Both the position numbers and the translations under genes were made by a program. A DNA stretch of 64,000 nucleotides from Clostridia bacterium (lineage in GTDB: Bacteria > Bacillota > Clostridia > Christensenellales > CAG-138), in contig JAFXSG010000025.1 of the NCBI GenBank assembly GCA_017525875.1, forward strand, positions 81,633 through 145,632. The letters run 5' to 3'. Shown piece by piece: positions 55,527-61,488 of the stretch. Within the stretch, counting starts at the first letter, position 1. Each line of letters starts with the position of its first letter. Under the pieces are notes generated by a model, which saw only the letters and a program-made list of their open reading frames with translations, had not been told where the DNA came from and searched no databases.

Positions 55527-57506
55527 TTATTTGATCACGGAAAGCACCGCGGCGGCGACGTTTTCCGGAGTGAAGCCGAAATGCTTGTAGACGAAGGAGC
55601 CGGGCGCGGATTCGCCGAAGCTCTTCATCGAAACGACCTTGCCGTCAAGCCCGACGAAACGCCAGAGACTCATCCCGCCGAGCACCTCCACCGCAACGCG
55701 TGCGCGAACGCAGGAAGGCAGCACGCTCTCGCGGTACTCCTCGCTCTGTTCGTCGAACAGCTCCGCGCAGGGCATCGAAACGACCCTGACGCTCCTGCCG
55801 GCGTCTTCAAGCTGCTTCTGCGCATCGATCGAGAGCGAGACCTCGGAGCCGGTGGCGATGATGATCGCGTCGAGCTTTGCGGGATCGCGCGCCTCGGAGA
55901 CGACGTAGCCGCCCTTCATCGCAGCCCTGCCGGTGCCCTTGAGCTGGGGAAGGTTCTGCCTTGAAAGCGCAAGGATCGCGGGGGCGTCGAGCGAGAGCGC
56001 GGCAAGATAGCAGGCCGCGGTCTCTTTGCCGTCCGCCGGACGGAATACGAAGGTGTTCGGCGTCGCGCGGAACATGTCCAGCTGCTCGATGGGCTGGTGC
56101 GTGGGGCCGTCCTCGCCGACCGCTATGCTGTCGTGCGTGGCGATATAGATAACGTTCAGGCCCATCAGCGCGGAAAGCCTCTCGGCGGGCTTGAGATAAT
56201 CGGTGAAGATCAGGAAAGTGGCGCAGTAGGTGCGCAGGCCGCCGTAGAGGTATGCGCCGTTCATCGCGGCCGCCATAGCGAACTCGCGCACGCCGAAATG
56301 GATGTTCCTGCCAGCGGGCTCGTCGGCGGAGAAATACGGCTCGCCCTTTATCTCACTGAGGTTCGTCGGCGCAAGGTCGGCGCTGCCGCCGAAGAGGTTG
56401 GGAAGGTGCTTCGCGATCTTGTTGAGCACCTGACCGGAGCAGGCGCGGGTCGCGATGGGCTTGTCTTCAAACTCGAACAGGCTCTCGTCGGCAAGAAGCG
56501 CCTCGGGCAGCTCGCGCGAATACCAGCTCTCAAGCTGTTTCGCAAGCTCCGGATATTCTTTCTCATAGCGCGCGAACATCTCGTCGTATGCTTTGACTTC
56601 GGGATCGATCTTCTTTTTCAGCGCGCGAAGGTGAGCGCGGACGTTCCTCGGAACGGTGAAGGGCTCGTTTTCCCAGCCGATGCTCTTCTTCCAGTCCTGT
56701 ATGACGTCCTCGCCGAGCGGCGCGCCGTGGCTCGACGCGGAGCCCTGCTTCGCGGTGCCCTGAGCGATGTTGGTGCGCACGATGATGAGAGAGGGTCTGG
56801 CCGTTTCCTTCTTTGCTTTGCGGATCGCGGCGCGTATCGCGGCGATATCCTCGCCGTCCCTGACGCTTATGACCTGCCAGCCGTAGGCAGCGAAGCGCGC
56901 GGCGGCGTCCTCGGTGAAGGTCACGTCGGTATTGCCTTCGATCGTGATCTTGTTGCAGTCGTACAGCGCGATCAGCTTTCCGAGCTTTAAGGAACCGGCG
57001 AGCGACGCGGCCTCCTGAGCAACGCCCTCCATCATGCAGCCGTCGCCCATGAGCGTGAAGGTGTAGTTATCGAAAACGGGGAAGCCTTCGCGGTTGAAAA
57101 CGGCAGCGAGGTGCCGTTCGGCCATCGCCATACCGACCGCCATTGCAAAGCCCTGGCCGAGAGGGCCGGTGGTCGCTTCAACGCCGGGGGTATTGCCGTA
57201 TTCGGGGTGACCCGCGGTCTTGCTGCCGAACTGGCGGAAGGACTTGATGTCGCCGAGGGAGACGTCGTAGCCGAAGAGGTGCAGCAGCGCGTAGTCGAGC
57301 ATGGACGCGTGCCCGGCGCTGAGGATGAAACGGTCGCGCCCGCGCCAGTCGGGGCGGGAGGGGTCCTTCCTGAGCTGCTCAAACACCGCCAGCGCCATCG
57401 GCGCAGCGCCGATCGCCATACCGGGGTGGCCGCTCTTGGCCTTCTGGATAGCGTCCGCAGCAAGCGTGCGGATCGTGTTTACCGTCATCGTATCTATCGA
57501 ATTCAT
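55527..57506 (-). CDS. tkt: Transketolase
   Basis: A 659-residue thiamine-diphosphate enzyme of the pentose phosphate pathway. The N-terminal domain starts NTIRTLAADAIQKAKSGHPG, the cofactor motif is MGDGCMMEGVAQEAASLAG (GDG...N-like), the catalytic Glu region is FGVREFAMAAAMNG, and THDSIAVGEDGPTHQP binds substrate. Full length, single gene rather than the split N/C form. It is divergent from the VirD4-like set. Confidence 0.96.
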   Translation of the reverse strand: MNSIDTMTVNTIRTLAADAIQKAKSGHPGMAIGAAPMALAVFEQLRKDPSRPDWRGRDRFILSAGHASMLDYALLHLFGYDVSLGDIKSFRQFGSKTAGHPEYGNTPGVEATTGPLGQGFAMAVGMAMAERHLAAVFNREGFPVFDNYTFTLMGDGCMMEGVAQEAASLAGSLKLGKLIALYDCNKITIEGNTDVTFTEDAAARFAAYGWQVISVRDGEDIAAIRAAIRKAKKETARPSLIIVRTNIAQGTAKQGSASSHGAPLGEDVIQDWKKSIGWENEPFTVPRNVRAHLRALKKKIDPEVKAYDEMFARYEKEYPELAKQLESWYSRELPEALLADESLFEFEDKPIATRACSGQVLNKIAKHLPNLFGGSADLAPTNLSEIKGEPYFSADEPAGRNIHFGVREFAMAAAMNGAYLYGGLRTYCATFLIFTDYLKPAERLSALMGLNVIYIATHDSIAVGEDGPTHQPIEQLDMFRATPNTFVFRPADGKETAACYLAALSLDAPAILALSRQNLPQLKGTGRAAMKGGYVVSEARDPAKLDAIIIATGSEVSLSIDAQKQLEDAGRSVRVVSMPCAELFDEQSEEYRESVLPSCVRARVAVEVLGGMSLWRFVGLDGKVVSMKSFGESAPGSFVYKHFGFTPENVAAAVLSVIK

Positions 57507-57641: not shown

Positions 57642-57670
57642 TTGACAGACAACCCGGATTTGGGTATAAT
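57642..57670 (+). promoter_or_regulatory. Promoter of the VirD4-like three-gene set
   Basis: TTGACA (57642-57647), 17-bp spacer, TATAAT (57665-57670). It lies inside the longer open frame that begins at 57548, so the real first start must be downstream, at 57701. Confidence 0.85.
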
Positions 57671-57700
57671 CCATATATCACAGCAAAGGAAACCAGAGGT

Positions 57701-58558
57701 ATGGAAAATCCGGCAACCAATCGCAGATCAGAATACAATCCGCTGAGATCACTTTTCAAAAAATGGGATAATCTTTCCAAAAACCTGCAGAAATACCCCG
57801 TAAGAGCTCCGATACTGCTTCCGGATCTTTTTGTTTGCGCTGACCGCGGCGTGGAGTTCACAAGGCTTATCGACGAGCTCAACGAGTTCCTTCTGGCGAG
57901 GAAAAACCTCATGGATTTCTACGGCGACGTGGACCACTTCGATTTCTTCCTCAACTATTGCAGTCCGGACGCCGGCTTTACGGAGATCGTCCGCCTGATG
58001 AACGAGGTCAAGGCCGCAGCCGGGTTCCGCAACCACTTCAAAGGCATCGTCCATATCGGGATAGACGACTGGATAGGGCATCACGATGAGACCTATTTTT
58101 CGGAGTTCCTAAGCTACCTTTCCGAGAACAGCCGCAACTGGCTCATCGTGCTTTCCGTCACCGACGATCCGGACAGGCATGACGGCATCGAGGAGATGCG
58201 CAGCGTCGTTTCGATGTTCCTCAGGGTCGAGCATCTTCAGATAAAGCTGCCCGGCGCGGAGCACTATCTGGACATGCTCGAGGGCATGCTTGAGGGCTAC
58301 GGCATCAGCCTTGACGAAGACGCGAGGAAGGCCATGCTCGCGTCCATCAAGGTGCTTCGCAGGAACCGTTATTTCAGCGGTGAGTTCAACATCAACTGCC
58401 TTGCGGACGACATAGTCTACACGCTGTATTCACTGCCGGGCAGCCCCGCAAAGCTTCTCACAAAGGCGGATCTTGAAGGGTTCACGGCAAGCAGCGACTA
58501 CATAAAACGCACCATTATCAGGATGCAGAAAAAGAACATGATCGGCTTTAACAACTGA
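57701..58558 (+). CDS. AAA-ATPase-like protein with eroded P-loop, first gene of the VirD4-like set
   Basis: A 285-residue soluble protein. Residues 37-60 (PILLPDLFVCADRG, then VEFTRLIDEL) occupy the place of an AAA Walker A strand-loop-helix, but the GxxGxGK[T/S] residues are gone. Residues 115-130 (GIVHIGIDDWIGHHDE) look like a Walker B strand with acidic ends. Later LQIKLPGAEHYLDMLEGML and the C-terminal helices fit an AAA lid, so it is probably a non-hydrolysing partner (inference). The ATG at 57701 is placed by the promoter ending at 57670 and by AAAGGA nearby. The next gene follows after 10 bases. Confidence 0.7.
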   Translation: MENPATNRRSEYNPLRSLFKKWDNLSKNLQKYPVRAPILLPDLFVCADRGVEFTRLIDELNEFLLARKNLMDFYGDVDHFDFFLNYCSPDAGFTEIVRLMNEVKAAAGFRNHFKGIVHIGIDDWIGHHDETYFSEFLSYLSENSRNWLIVLSVTDDPDRHDGIEEMRSVVSMFLRVEHLQIKLPGAEHYLDMLEGMLEGYGISLDEDARKAMLASIKVLRRNRYFSGEFNINCLADDIVYTLYSLPGSPAKLLTKADLEGFTASSDYIKRTIIRMQKKNMIGFNN

Positions 58559-58568
58559 GGAGGACGGT

Positions 58569-60050
58569 ATGAGTTCCTATAGATTCGGAAGATACGTCGT
58601 TTCGGACCAGGAAACGCGCTGGGCGACCGAAAGCGAGATCAAGAGCAGCGGCACATACGTCGATCTCTTTGCGAAGAAGTATCCGACCGGCGGTCTGCCT
58701 CTGCTTTCAGACGGCAAAAAGGCCTGGATCGACGGCAGTGATACTCACACAATGATCTTCGGCGCGACCGGCTCCAAGAAAACAAGGCTTTTCTGCATGC
58801 CTATGCTCAATATTTTCACAAAAGCTGGGGAGAGCTTCATCGCGACCGATCCCAAGGGCGAACTGTACCAGAACACCTCCGGCATAGCCCGCGCCAACGG
58901 CTACCAGATCGTCGTGCTCAATTTCAGGGATATCGGCAGGGGCGATATGTGGAACCCGCTCGCTCTGCCCTACGAGCTTTATCACAGCGGGAACGTCGAA
59001 GCGGCCACGAGCATGCTCAACGACTTCGTAGCAACGATCTCCGAGCCGTTTATTACGAACACGCAGGATCAATTCTGGCCGCAGATGGCGGCGTCGTACG
59101 CGCTGGCGAACCTGCTGCTTCTGATGGACTGCGCTTCCAAGGAAGAGGCAAACGTCACCAGCCTCGCCGCGCTCTGCCGGGAAGGAACCTGCGATACGCT
59201 CAAACGCCTCGCGGAATCCATGCCGAGCGATTCCATCGCCAAAATAAACTACGACAGCGTGCTCTCAAACCCCGAAAAGACGAGAAACTGCATCTTCTCC
59301 ATGCTATATTCGATGATCAGGGTCTTCGCAACGCAGAAAAATCTCTGCGGCATGCTTTCGAGGAGCTCAGTCGATTTCCGCACCGTCGGCCGAAAAAAGA
59401 CCGCGCTTTACATCATCGTGCCGGATGAAAAAACCACCTATCATTTCCTCGTCACGACCTTTATCAAGCAGATCTACGAGCTTTTGATCGCCGAAGCGCA
59501 GAAATGCCCGAACGGACAGCTGCCCGTCAGGGTCAACTTCGTGCTGGATGAGTTCTGCAACATACCCAGGATCCCGGATATGCCGTCCATGATCTCCGCC
59601 GCGAGGAGCCGCAATATGCGCTACTACCTCGTTGCGCAGAGCAAGCATCAGCTCATCGGCAAATACGGCGAAGACGCGGAAACGATCAAGGGCAACTGCG
59701 ACAACTGGGTGTTTTTAACGAGCAAGGAGCTCGATCTTCTCGAGGAGATCAGCAGGCTTTGCGGCGTAACGACCACCGCGGGCGGGAAGGAGCGCAGGCT
59801 CATCTCCACCTCCGAGCTGCAGCGTCTCGACAAGCAGAAGGGCGAAGCGCTCATCATGCACGCGAGGGAGTACCCGATCATCACCGAGATCGCCGACATA
59901 TCGATGTACGAGCCCTTCGCCGGTTTCGAGGCCATCCCGCTCAGCTCGTTCACCATCCCGGAAACGAAAGTGTTCTCCGCTGATGCGCTCCTTCGCGGCG
60001 TGGTACGCGGTTACAGGAGAGCTCCGTTTTCCGGCAGGTACGGCGGATAA
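58569..60050 (+). CDS. VirD4/TraG-type coupling ATPase without membrane domain
   Basis: A 493-residue P-loop ATPase of the type IV coupling protein / TraM-recognition family. Walker A is FGATGSKKT (about 64-72), with Lys where most have Gly; IATDPKGELYQNT follows, then Walker B VNFVLDEFCNIP (Asp327-Glu328) and the YYLVAQSKHQLIGKYG motif. VirD4 proteins drive DNA or protein through type IV secretion channels from two N-terminal membrane helices; this one has none. No relaxase, VirB4 or pilus gene is in reach, so it is an orphan motor. It sits between a P-loop-less AAA-like gene and a helical unknown. Confidence 0.85.
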   Translation: MSSYRFGRYVVSDQETRWATESEIKSSGTYVDLFAKKYPTGGLPLLSDGKKAWIDGSDTHTMIFGATGSKKTRLFCMPMLNIFTKAGESFIATDPKGELYQNTSGIARANGYQIVVLNFRDIGRGDMWNPLALPYELYHSGNVEAATSMLNDFVATISEPFITNTQDQFWPQMAASYALANLLLLMDCASKEEANVTSLAALCREGTCDTLKRLAESMPSDSIAKINYDSVLSNPEKTRNCIFSMLYSMIRVFATQKNLCGMLSRSSVDFRTVGRKKTALYIIVPDEKTTYHFLVTTFIKQIYELLIAEAQKCPNGQLPVRVNFVLDEFCNIPRIPDMPSMISAARSRNMRYYLVAQSKHQLIGKYGEDAETIKGNCDNWVFLTSKELDLLEEISRLCGVTTTAGGKERRLISTSELQRLDKQKGEALIMHAREYPIITEIADISMYEPFAGFEAIPLSSFTIPETKVFSADALLRGVVRGYRRAPFSGRYGG

Positions 60051-60057
60051 CGTCAAA

Positions 60058-61488
60058 ATGAGTTCGAAGAAGGACAAAAATTATCTTATAGAGCTCGCAG
60101 AGTTCAGGCGCAAGAACTTTGAGCGGGACCCGGATCCGGCTGTCGCAAGGCTGCTTGCGGAGGATTACGCTGCCATATCGCCTCTGGCCTATATGGAGCT
60201 CAAAGGAACTGAGGGCCTGAAGGAGGCGGCGGACTGGCTGCTGAAAGCCGCAAAGTACCGCCTTGATGCGTACCGGATGAGCGGGAATATCGATCATTTG
60301 CGCGAATATGTGCAGGATATGGAGAATGCCGCCGACATGCTGGAAGGGACCGCGTCCGATCGCGGCCGCGCAGGGGACGTTTATAAGGAACTGTGCGATG
60401 AAGTCATGCCGCTTGGCGAAAGCTCCGAATACGAGGATATATCCGTCTGTGCGAAATGCTTCAACGACCTCGGAACGTTTGCGTACGAAAGCTACGTAAA
60501 GAACAGAGCCGCCGACGATATCGTCCTTGCCGCAAACAGCTTCCTGACCGCAGCCGATATTATAATGAAGCTGAACTGCGGGACGACCGCCGTTTCGGCA
60601 AACGGAATGATCCGATCGGTCCTCGACAACAATCTGCTCCCTCCGGGGATGCTCTCCTCACAAGATCCTTCTCTGCTGCACGAGGTCTACACGCCCGAAA
60701 AGCAGCGCAGGCTGAGGCAGCATTTGATCAGCGCGTTCGACGAGCTGAAGGCACAGGTCCGGGAGGACTCGGCGCCGCCGCGGATGCTGATGCTCACCGA
60801 GGCGGCCCGCGGCTGCCTGAGCTTTGCAAGTTCATTCAAGCTGTCAGGCATGCTATCAGAATACACTGTCGAGGCCGAACGGTGGAGTTATAAGCTTGCG
60901 TCCGCGTCCGGCCGTCTTTCCGACGAAGTGATATATATCAACGACGCGTCGCGCTGCTTCCGCTATTCCGCTCTGATCTATGAAGGCAACAGAAAAGAGT
61001 TCTTTTCGATGATCGAAAGAGCCGGTGAGATGCTTAAAAAGCTTTATCTTCGCGCGCCCGATCCTGACCTGAACGGTTTTGCGGAAAGCTGGCTCGACAC
61101 GGTGCTTGGCAGCACGTGGTTCACGGGGAGGACGAGGCCGATCGAGGTCTTTTCCTTCCTCGGCGATATCGTTCGGGTCTATGACGCCGCGATAGAGAAA
61201 GAGCTGATCGGCGCGGGAACCGTCTTCACGCAGCATCTCGGCAGGATAGCGGAGTTCTTCACGTCAGGCTTCGGTTTCGCAAAGAAGTACCGCGCGGGAG
61301 CCGCAAGGCGTTTTTTGATCGAGTGCAGCGCAGTTATTGCGATGAAGAAATACGGCGTCGTGTCGCCCGATCTTGAGGCGCCGGCCGAAGGATTCGCCGC
61401 TTATCTCGCCGAAAAGCACCCCGGGAAAGCAACGGATGAAGCCGTCAAGGCCCTTGAGGACGCGAGGAAGGCCCGGCATAGCAGCTGA
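60058..61488 (+). CDS. Helical protein of unknown function, third gene of the VirD4-like set
   Basis: A 476-residue protein predicted almost wholly helical, with recurrent A-x-x-x-L/F-x-x-A patterns (EAADWLLKAAKYRLDAYR, ANSFLTAADIIMKL, GAARRFLIECSAVIAMKK) suggesting a TPR-like or other alpha-solenoid. There is one CxxC (ISVCAKCFND). No signal peptide, membrane helix or known catalytic motif. It starts eight bases after the VirD4-like stop, so it is almost surely cotranscribed and may be an adaptor or cargo. An open frame 25 codons upstream overlaps the previous gene and is not favoured. Confidence 0.7.
   Translation: MSSKKDKNYLIELAEFRRKNFERDPDPAVARLLAEDYAAISPLAYMELKGTEGLKEAADWLLKAAKYRLDAYRMSGNIDHLREYVQDMENAADMLEGTASDRGRAGDVYKELCDEVMPLGESSEYEDISVCAKCFNDLGTFAYESYVKNRAADDIVLAANSFLTAADIIMKLNCGTTAVSANGMIRSVLDNNLLPPGMLSSQDPSLLHEVYTPEKQRRLRQHLISAFDELKAQVREDSAPPRMLMLTEAARGCLSFASSFKLSGMLSEYTVEAERWSYKLASASGRLSDEVIYINDASRCFRYSALIYEGNRKEFFSMIERAGEMLKKLYLRAPDPDLNGFAESWLDTVLGSTWFTGRTRPIEVFSFLGDIVRVYDAAIEKELIGAGTVFTQHLGRIAEFFTSGFGFAKKYRAGAARRFLIECSAVIAMKKYGVVSPDLEAPAEGFAAYLAEKHPGKATDEAVKALEDARKARHSS

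Follow-up and report, generated by a model that had tools for sequence, protein, structure and literature searches.

The VirD4 branch of the FtsK/HerA pumps serves the export of DNA and effectors, and CHAT, TPR and NACHT-like genes mark conflict systems that depend on nucleoside triphosphates (NTPs). An (L/I/V)-G-(F/L) tripeptide docks Clp ATPases in pockets of ClpP, according to two papers (PMC8745299, PMC6773864). The present analysis concerns a stretch of 64,000 nucleotides from a Clostridia bacterium (assembly GCA_017525875.1, contig JAFXSG010000025.1), here called the window, and within it three closely spaced genes: gene 1 (protein P0001) encodes an AAA-like protein, gene 2 (P0002) a soluble VirD4-like ATPase, and gene 3 (P0003) a protein to which no family could be assigned. 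Genes 1 and 2 form a conserved unit, to which gene 3 does not belong. As far as the DNA shows, this pair is not conjugative, and the best supported of the new ideas that it raises, which we hold only tentatively, is a link to ClpP.

Relatives and distribution of the pair

When named genomes were scanned with a profile built on soluble VirD4-like proteins, 483 relatives emerged, the best 80 of which comprise the 30 nearest, window-type loci (L045-L074) and 50 membrane-type loci (L075-L124). The former come from Clostridia, mostly of the rumen or gut, and from one bin labelled Cloacimonadota, a label that is perhaps a binning error. Among these best 80, each of the 30 nearest loci has a homologue of gene 1 as the next gene upstream of its VirD4-like gene (27 recognized by BLAST clustering, L051 and L069 added subsequently, and L074 at E 1e-8 by the profile of A5, our alignment of the gene 1 family), at a distance of at most 46 bases except in L046, where the gap is 181 bases. 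A5 has 29 rows, 13 of them from Lachnospiraceae; the partner in L065, cut by the contig end, and that in L074 are counted among the 30 and are not in the alignment. In the membrane-type loci, from Bacilli and Mycoplasmatota, VirD4 is membrane-anchored, its N-terminus bearing two or three hydrophobic segments, and neither BLAST clustering nor the A5 profile found a gene 1-type partner there. In the tree, the main soluble clade stands apart from the conjugative rows. The Lachnospiraceae clade (L056-L070) has neighbor genes around the pair in common, and inheritance there therefore looks vertical. In nine Lachnospiraceae loci (L056-L059, L063, L066-L069; for example, L066:7022-7924) a lipoprotein-like gene with the cysteine pattern CDFCG...C..C lies two genes upstream of the VirD4-like gene.

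Among the 103 genomes of the family sample, gene 1 occurs in two, the window's own and G021 (48% identity). The unit of G021 lies at a different chromosomal place, between what we take to be an ApbE-like gene on one side and genes for an aldo/keto reductase, rpsB and tsf on the other. In the phylum-wide sample, matches besides the window's own reach at most 317 bits, and the readable loci are mostly membrane-anchored. L045 and G021:C2 (L006) denote one contig of 67,596 bases, and L128-L137 are the same places as L141-L150 and were counted once. Left uncounted were loci with unreadable or wrong-frame open reading frame calls; the weak A5 matches L139 and L140, which are probably due to chance, and L138, a broken-up double-AAA-like gene; and the partner in L041, with an A5 match of only 6e-4 in a search of 14 proteins.

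Genes of a type IV secretion system (T4SS) were not found near the pair. BLAST with one VirB4, two relaxase and eight integrase queries gave no match in the window, in the 30 window-type loci or in 19 other soluble or double-AAA loci; as a control, the VirB4 query matches 38 of the 50 membrane-type loci, whereas the relaxase and integrase queries lack such a control, and three of the eight for integrase appear to be wrong frames. The Relaxase and Phage_integrase models find nothing on the window's 145.6-kb contig (C37), so that nothing there suggests a conjugative element; elsewhere in the genome the relaxase model matches on C21 and C8, and the integrase model on C19, C11, C35, C26 and C46. 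Among 72,556 plasmid records, none matches P0001. The initial annotation had read the genes as a stand-alone set, free of relaxase, VirB and integrase genes, and had proposed that homologues be checked for residence in integrative and conjugative elements; across these 49 loci, and with these few queries, the description holds. Membership in such an element was rejected on the combined evidence of plasmids, contig C37 and related loci. Phage origin was likewise rejected: two loci come from viral contigs, one of them distant, and phage records hold 36 distant matches. The membrane-type loci (e.g., L113:1-11010) show a recurrent T4SS-like cluster with the VirB4-like gene already mentioned, in which genes for an M23 peptidase protein, a small membrane protein and a large multi-helix protein lie upstream, with trpS, rnr and smpB near some (names given by eye); relaxase or integrase genes were not matched in them with the few queries used.

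An apparently decayed AAA partner with a candidate ClpP-docking tail

P0001 itself matches nothing at E ≤1 in Pfam, NCBIfam, PADLOC or PHROGs, and the A5 profile matches nothing in the PDB up to E 10. One of the 29 members of A5 (L048) has Pfam matches to KAP, AAA_22 and NPHP3_N, at E 0.016-0.15. In the alignment, where P0001 has RGVEFT, and thus lacks the Walker A P-loop of an AAA+ ATPase, L048 keeps SGVGKT, L051 SGAGKT and L071 SGTGKS, while others have PGYGNT-like or DNGID-like sequences. When the A5 profile was run on the 1229 proteins of the examined loci that reach 150 amino acids, it also picked out two more distant partners, one with GCGRTT (the second copy in L039, hereafter L039b; E 5e-12) and one with GNGRTT (L187; E 4e-12); single hhalign comparisons give them probabilities of 95 and 92. 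On sequence grounds, gene 1 thus appears to encode a decayed AAA-type ATPase, and the earlier description of an AAA-like protein with its P-loop lost is supported by the homologues that keep the motif in place.

The C-terminus of P0001 reads KKNMIGFNN, and its I-G-F fits, at the level of sequence, the docking tripeptide of Clp ATPases. Within the last 12 residues, [ILV]GF is present in 14 of the 29 rows of A5, or 14 of the 16 outside Lachnospiraceae; the rows without it are the 13 from Lachnospiraceae, L071 (AGF) and L073 (FGF). The A5 profile matches 44 of the 1229 proteins, and 21 of these 44 carry [ILV]GF, against a background of nine of 1185 non-family proteins (six of them with the motif in the last eight residues, and the nine including the ClpP of L187). 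No probability is attached to these counts, because the rows of one family are not independent. The ClpP of L187 (L187:120-713) itself ends in ...NIGFPKSV, a docking-type tripeptide in its own tail.

ClpP genes beside the pair and double-AAA relatives

Tblastn places a clpP gene immediately next to an AAA-like/VirD4-like pair in six loci: in L051, L148, L149 and L150 it lies downstream, after the VirD4-like gene, and in L039b and L187 upstream, before the AAA-like gene. Each of the six partners is a member of the gene 1 family, that in L051 as a row of A5 and the rest by A5 matches at E ≤3e-13, apart from the values given above for L187 and L039b. The six pairs fall on three branches of the tree, formed by L149, L148 and L150, by L051 within the window's clade, and by L039b and L187 outside the main soluble clade; long branches leave the positions of L039b, L187 and L149 uncertain. 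The 50 membrane-type loci (3-19 kb each) contain no ClpP by tblastn. Other ClpP matches lie near the pair in L038, after a 341-amino-acid gene, and in L151, a housekeeping locus.

In the class sample of 391 genomes, 14 were matched by the A5 profile, in a search made without regard to ClpP. Profile A10, from the alignment of VirD4-like proteins, finds five genomes besides the window's at 390 bits or more, and ClpP lies beside the pair in four of these five; in the fifth, G639, there is none in the 19 kb examined around the pair. The two profiles amount to one sample, not two, since four of the five genomes are rows of A10 that were first found with A5. The cluster-borne ClpPs retain the Ser and His motifs. 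The window's genome has what we take, by eye, to be clpP beside clpX and tig, and a second ClpP-family match, on C51, is much weaker (73 bits).

A P0001-like domain also occurs fused to an AAA+ domain, which it precedes (PF00004, 1.3e-18 in L141), in six class-sample proteins of 650-700 amino acids (L141-L146). L048 holds a seventh such double-AAA protein, 42% identical to that of L145. Six of the seven end in [ILV]GF, and that of L144 has FGF. ClpP follows the double-AAA gene directly in L141 and L142, where motif, AAA motor and ClpP thus occur together, as expected of an unfoldase and its protease; P0001 would appear to be that docking domain in the service of a different motor. The position in ClpP that we take, by eye, as equivalent to the pocket residue I190 of ctClpP2 is hydrophobic in L051, L141 and L142, whose partners carry [ILV]GF, and among the six others in L148, L150 and L038, not in L149, L039 or L187; nine ClpPs are too few for a conclusion.

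Some of these loci have further features of their own. L141:8034-12078 (G685:C14) is a three-gene cluster of a CARF-PD-(D/E)xK nuclease, a double-AAA protein ending in IGF, and ClpP, and is a candidate for a signal-controlled protease; inspection of 19.5 kb by eye showed no CRISPR gene. L038:1966-14957 is a large cluster of a soluble VirD4-like gene, its 341-amino-acid follower, ClpP, a second VirD4-like gene (717 amino acids) and an AAA_2 ATPase. In L187:1498-3357 and L039:13933-15768, the VirD4-like proteins have C-terminal extensions that by eye resemble the L7/L12 C-terminal (ClpS-like) fold, with no Pfam match in that part.

The soluble VirD4-like ATPase

P0002 matches Pfam T4SS-DNA_transf (PF02534) at E 1.5e-40 and scores 284 bits against the NCBIfam model conju_CD1115 (NF045973; cut-off 250), as a VirD4/TraG coupling protein does. 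Its match to HerA_C is weak (E 0.19), that to PADLOC mad8 has E 4.5e-6, and no Clp ATPase family, and hence no sign of an Hsp100/Clp unfoldase, is among the Pfam and NCBIfam matches of P0001 or P0002. Its highest mean hydropathy over 19 residues (Kyte-Doolittle) is only 1.10, so that no membrane helix is apparent; the corresponding values are 0.88 for gene 1 and 1.32 for gene 3, and the scan shows no membrane anchor, own or separate, in any of the three proteins. The membrane clade of VirD4 relatives has at least two N-terminal segments over 1.6.

In the soluble relatives the Gly before the Walker A Lys is mostly replaced, usually by Lys, and is retained in L071, L040, L041, L039b and L187. 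Lys71, Asp94, Lys96, Glu328 and Arg346/348 are invariant in A10, and nucleotide binding by P0002 is therefore probably kept. Family scores, hydropathy and motifs agree with the earlier picture of a VirD4/TraG-type ATPase without membrane helices, with a KKT Walker A and an intact Walker B and QS..QL motif.

Layout of the locus and the variable third slot

The coordinates of the three genes and their motifs are collected in Table 1. Between positions 57400 and 62700 there are seven promoter-like sites with at least nine of 12 matches, where shuffled sequence gives a mean of 2.5, and a single one is perfect. One consensus promoter before three close genes had been described at the outset, with gaps of 10 and 8 bases; promoter and first gap stand, and the second gap measures 7 bases. 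Upstream, on the opposite strand, lies presumably a transketolase gene, and downstream of the trio what we take to be a PAP2-type membrane phosphatase. Orthologues of the latter in G017, G018 and G019 have other neighbors within 3.9 kb, and no empty site was seen in this comparison.

Table 1. Positions in the window of the three genes, their promoter and the sequence motifs discussed.
Feature	Position	Strand	Remarks
Promoter TTGACA-N17-TATAAT	57642..57670	+	Consensus sigma-70-type; 12/12 matches
Gene 1 (P0001, 285 amino acids)	57701..58558	+	AAA-like partner with eroded P-loop
P-loop remnant RGVEFT	57845..57862	+	Residues 49-54 of gene 1; alignment A5
I-G-F tripeptide	58541..58549	+	Residues 281-283 of P0001; candidate ClpP-docking motif
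Gene 2 (P0002, 493 amino acids)	58569..60050	+	Soluble VirD4-like ATPase, CD1115 type
Walker A GATGSKKT	58761..58784	+	Residues 65-72; Lys in place of usual Gly before catalytic Lys
Walker B Asp-Glu (LDEF)	59547..59552	+	Residues 327-328
QSKHQL motif	59637..59654	+	Residues 357-362
Gene 3 (P0003, 476 amino acids)	60058..61488	+	No family assigned; slot variable in relatives

The sole match of P0003 at E ≤1 in Pfam, NCBIfam, PADLOC and PHROGs is to Pfam FAT, at E 0.14, and none of the three proteins matches a nuclease or winged helix-turn-helix (wHTH) family. A single comparison with the TPR-like third protein of G021 (L045) is marginal (E 8e-4 over 38 amino acids), and profile comparisons among third-slot proteins (A6 with A7, A7 with A8) are not significant. 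Among the eleven loci closest to the window (L045-L055), the slot downstream of the VirD4-like gene holds TPR-like proteins in L045, L046 and L047, a CARF-PD-(D/E)xK nuclease in L048, a family of 285-288 amino acids in L049, L050, L052, L053 and L054 (no Pfam match in the two scanned), ClpP in L051, and no close gene in L055. Of the 14 Lachnospiraceae loci L056-L059 and L061-L070, eight have a gene on the opposite strand as the next one; a 329-amino-acid gene follows the pair in L059, a 477-amino-acid gene follows at 56-107 bases in L067, L068 and L069, and L058 and L065 have small open reading frames only. This variation rules out the trio as a fixed unit, the form in which the initial annotation had conceived it; of the co-occurrence that it had proposed to check across genomes, the part concerning genes 1 and 2 survives, and that concerning gene 3 does not.

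Further afield, the neighbors include genes of the kind found in conflict systems. L147 encodes a CHAT/TPR protein (PF12770, 1.4e-40) with a homologue in L148; in both loci (L147:7263-16177, L148:5602-16119) the pair lies beside this protein of about 1165 amino acids, in L148 together with ClpP. CARF-PD-(D/E)xK nucleases occur in L048 and in L141, there directly before the double-AAA gene, and BrxL in L036 (PF13337, 1.1e-132). By eye we also take genes in L040, L042 and L150 to encode NACHT-like and TIR-like proteins, and genes in L048, L074, L147 and L148 to be anti-sigma-like and sigma-like (one was tested, with no Pfam match). Such neighbors favor a signaling or conflict role for the wider family, and are compatible with a protease.

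Discussion

The observations above suggest that genes 1 and 2 may encode a cytosolic, ATP-driven protein translocase derived from a former conjugation coupling ATPase. The VirD4-like protein, no longer seated in the membrane, would be the motor, presumably a ring; the AAA-like protein, its ATP binding lost, would be the adaptor, its C-terminal IGF tail docking in ClpP's hydrophobic pockets and thereby enabling the motor to thread selected proteins into the peptidase. Relatives with a clpP gene beside the pair would have a ClpP of their own, and the organism of the window would use the housekeeping one; gene 3 could encode an adaptor for substrates or signals, or else an effector. What we infer here is the docking, the unfolding, the proteolysis and the part played by gene 3. 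That the motor is a protein translocase docked to ClpP by gene 1 appears to us a real possibility, somewhat short of probable. We are more hesitant about the wider proposal, which may be right and is on balance doubtful, of a new class of ATP-dependent protease in which a VirD4-family motor takes the place of the Clp unfoldase, held to ClpP by the IGF tail of its dead AAA partner, with CARF and CHAT neighbors suggesting signal-controlled use in conflict. The initial annotation had envisaged a stand-alone machine for DNA or protein translocation with an eroded AAA partner; its isolation and its eroded partner are supported, but because of the recurrent ClpP neighbor and the C-terminal IGF motif, proteolysis is favored over DNA transfer, competence or secretion.

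Several observations weigh against this proposal. We know of no VirD4-family ATPase that serves a peptidase; the tripeptide is short; and the Gly-to-Lys change in Walker A bears on the predicted ATPase activity of P0002. There is no ClpP in the window's own cluster, and in the DNA examined for the 30 nearest loci (from the best 80 of 483) only L051 has one. The Lachnospiraceae clade has neither adjacent ClpP nor tripeptide, most of its 13 rows in A5 ending in QFNY, QYNIQ or similar. Among the six ClpP-adjacent pairs, only the partner in L051 has [ILV]GF; that in L149 has MGL, and those in L148, L150, L039b and L187 have no such motif near the C-terminus. Motif and ClpP adjacency therefore mostly do not coincide in pair-type loci. 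One conjectural way to reconcile them is that loci with their own ClpP evolved another contact, and those without it use the housekeeping ClpP through the canonical motif. In addition, five soluble VirD4-like genes (L036, L037, L038, the first copy in L039, and L125) are without a recognized AAA-like partner. They form a separate branch of the tree and have other genes upstream; a protein of 341-349 amino acids follows directly in L038, L039 and L125, and one of 361 after a small gene in L037, and the follower in L039, the only one scanned, has weak TPR matches (E 0.008).

The CARF nuclease and CHAT neighbors of the relatives would fit a conflict system equally well, and the chief rival to the protease reading is a HerA/FtsK-type defense system, in which the VirD4-like protein would be a DNA pump capturing invaders, the AAA-like protein a sensor or clamp, and ClpP, CARF nuclease and TPR protein exchangeable effectors in the third slot. 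The variation of that slot among close relatives speaks for it, as do the CARF, CHAT/TPR, NACHT-like, TIR-like and BrxL neighbors in related loci and the patchy distribution of gene 1, found in two family genomes including the window's; HerA/FtsK proteins with AAA+ partners and effectors are, moreover, a published type (PMC12839542). It leaves the IGF tail unexplained, however, and sits less well with the shared surroundings and apparently vertical inheritance in Lachnospiraceae, or with the absence of PADLOC matches at E ≤1 for the trio other than that of P0002 to mad8, and we consider it rather unlikely. Those shared surroundings would suit a resident housekeeping module of Clostridia, serving regulated proteolysis, the envelope or development with no link to invaders and with other cargo, and for which adjacency to ClpP would be incidental. 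Core genes, identified by eye, surround the pair in the window (transketolase), in G021 (rpsB, tsf and ApbE) and in relatives (trpAB, argG, deoD). But the unit is rare and patchy for a housekeeping function, its chromosomal place differs between the window and the nearest relative, and ClpP recurs on three branches, all of which make this explanation improbable.

Least probable, and in our judgment very much so, is that the module is left over from conjugation or still assists it, as an orphan coupling protein for the T4SS channels of elements elsewhere in the genome. P0002 does pass the conjugation-family model, and the genome has another VirD4-like gene on C8 and the relaxase matches on C8 and C21; the class sample, too, includes VirD4-like genes without N-terminal helices that are preceded by a small protein with a hydrophobic start. 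The conservation of the pair, the failure to find T4SS genes around it (present in 0/30 and 0/19 loci with the queries used) and the separation of the main soluble clade from the conjugative rows argue against such a role, as do the lack of P0001 matches among plasmids and of an apparent anchor in the trio. In L191, L193, L195, L201, L204, L205, L208 and L209, VirD4-like genes, several of them without N-terminal helices by the threshold applied, have such a small hydrophobic-start protein upstream, and may encode split-anchor coupling proteins.

Should the protease reading prove true, proteolysis within the cell would have acquired a motor from the VirD4 branch of FtsK/HerA pumps, and ClpP a motor partner that does not belong to the Clp/Hsp100 family. 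Whether or not ClpP is involved, gut Clostridia are seen to carry a VirD4 module that is not conjugative, one that may be mistaken for a mobile element because family models label P0002 a "conjugal transfer protein."

Comparison with known systems

This module is without a description in the literature searched: by title and the start of the abstract, among the entries listed and with subscription papers and most preprints outside the search, no account was found of a VirD4-like/ClpP system or of an orphan soluble VirD4. The related loci, with their CHAT, TPR and NACHT-like genes, resemble NTP-dependent biological conflict systems. In the main text of a paper on such systems (PMC7159879), a term search finds no VirD4, TraG, ClpP or CbxX. 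The HerA/FtsK-anchored capture systems (PMC12839542, PMC10853773) are alike in having a motor of the FtsK-HerA superfamily, an AAA-type partner and exchangeable effectors; term searches of both main texts find no VirD4, TraG or ClpP. The motor here is instead of VirD4 type, and the trio does not present their combination of HerA-type translocase, AAA+ partner, wHTH protein and nuclease.

Closest in sequence are the VirD4/TraG coupling proteins of the CD1115 subfamily (NF045973, PF02534), with which P0002 shares its family, Walker B and QS..QL motif. Unlike them, it has no membrane helices, no T4SS genes found nearby, a Gly-to-Lys change in Walker A and, throughout the window's clade, a constant AAA-like partner upstream. 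The Clp ATPase-ClpP proteases (ClpXP, ClpCP, ClpAP) differ in that their motor is of the Hsp100/Clp rather than the VirD4 type; here, moreover, the tripeptide is borne by the C-terminus of a separate pseudo-AAA partner, and the window's cluster is without ClpP. Yet the (L/I/V)-G-(F/L) tripeptide itself is alike, and in some relatives ClpP genes stand beside the pair.

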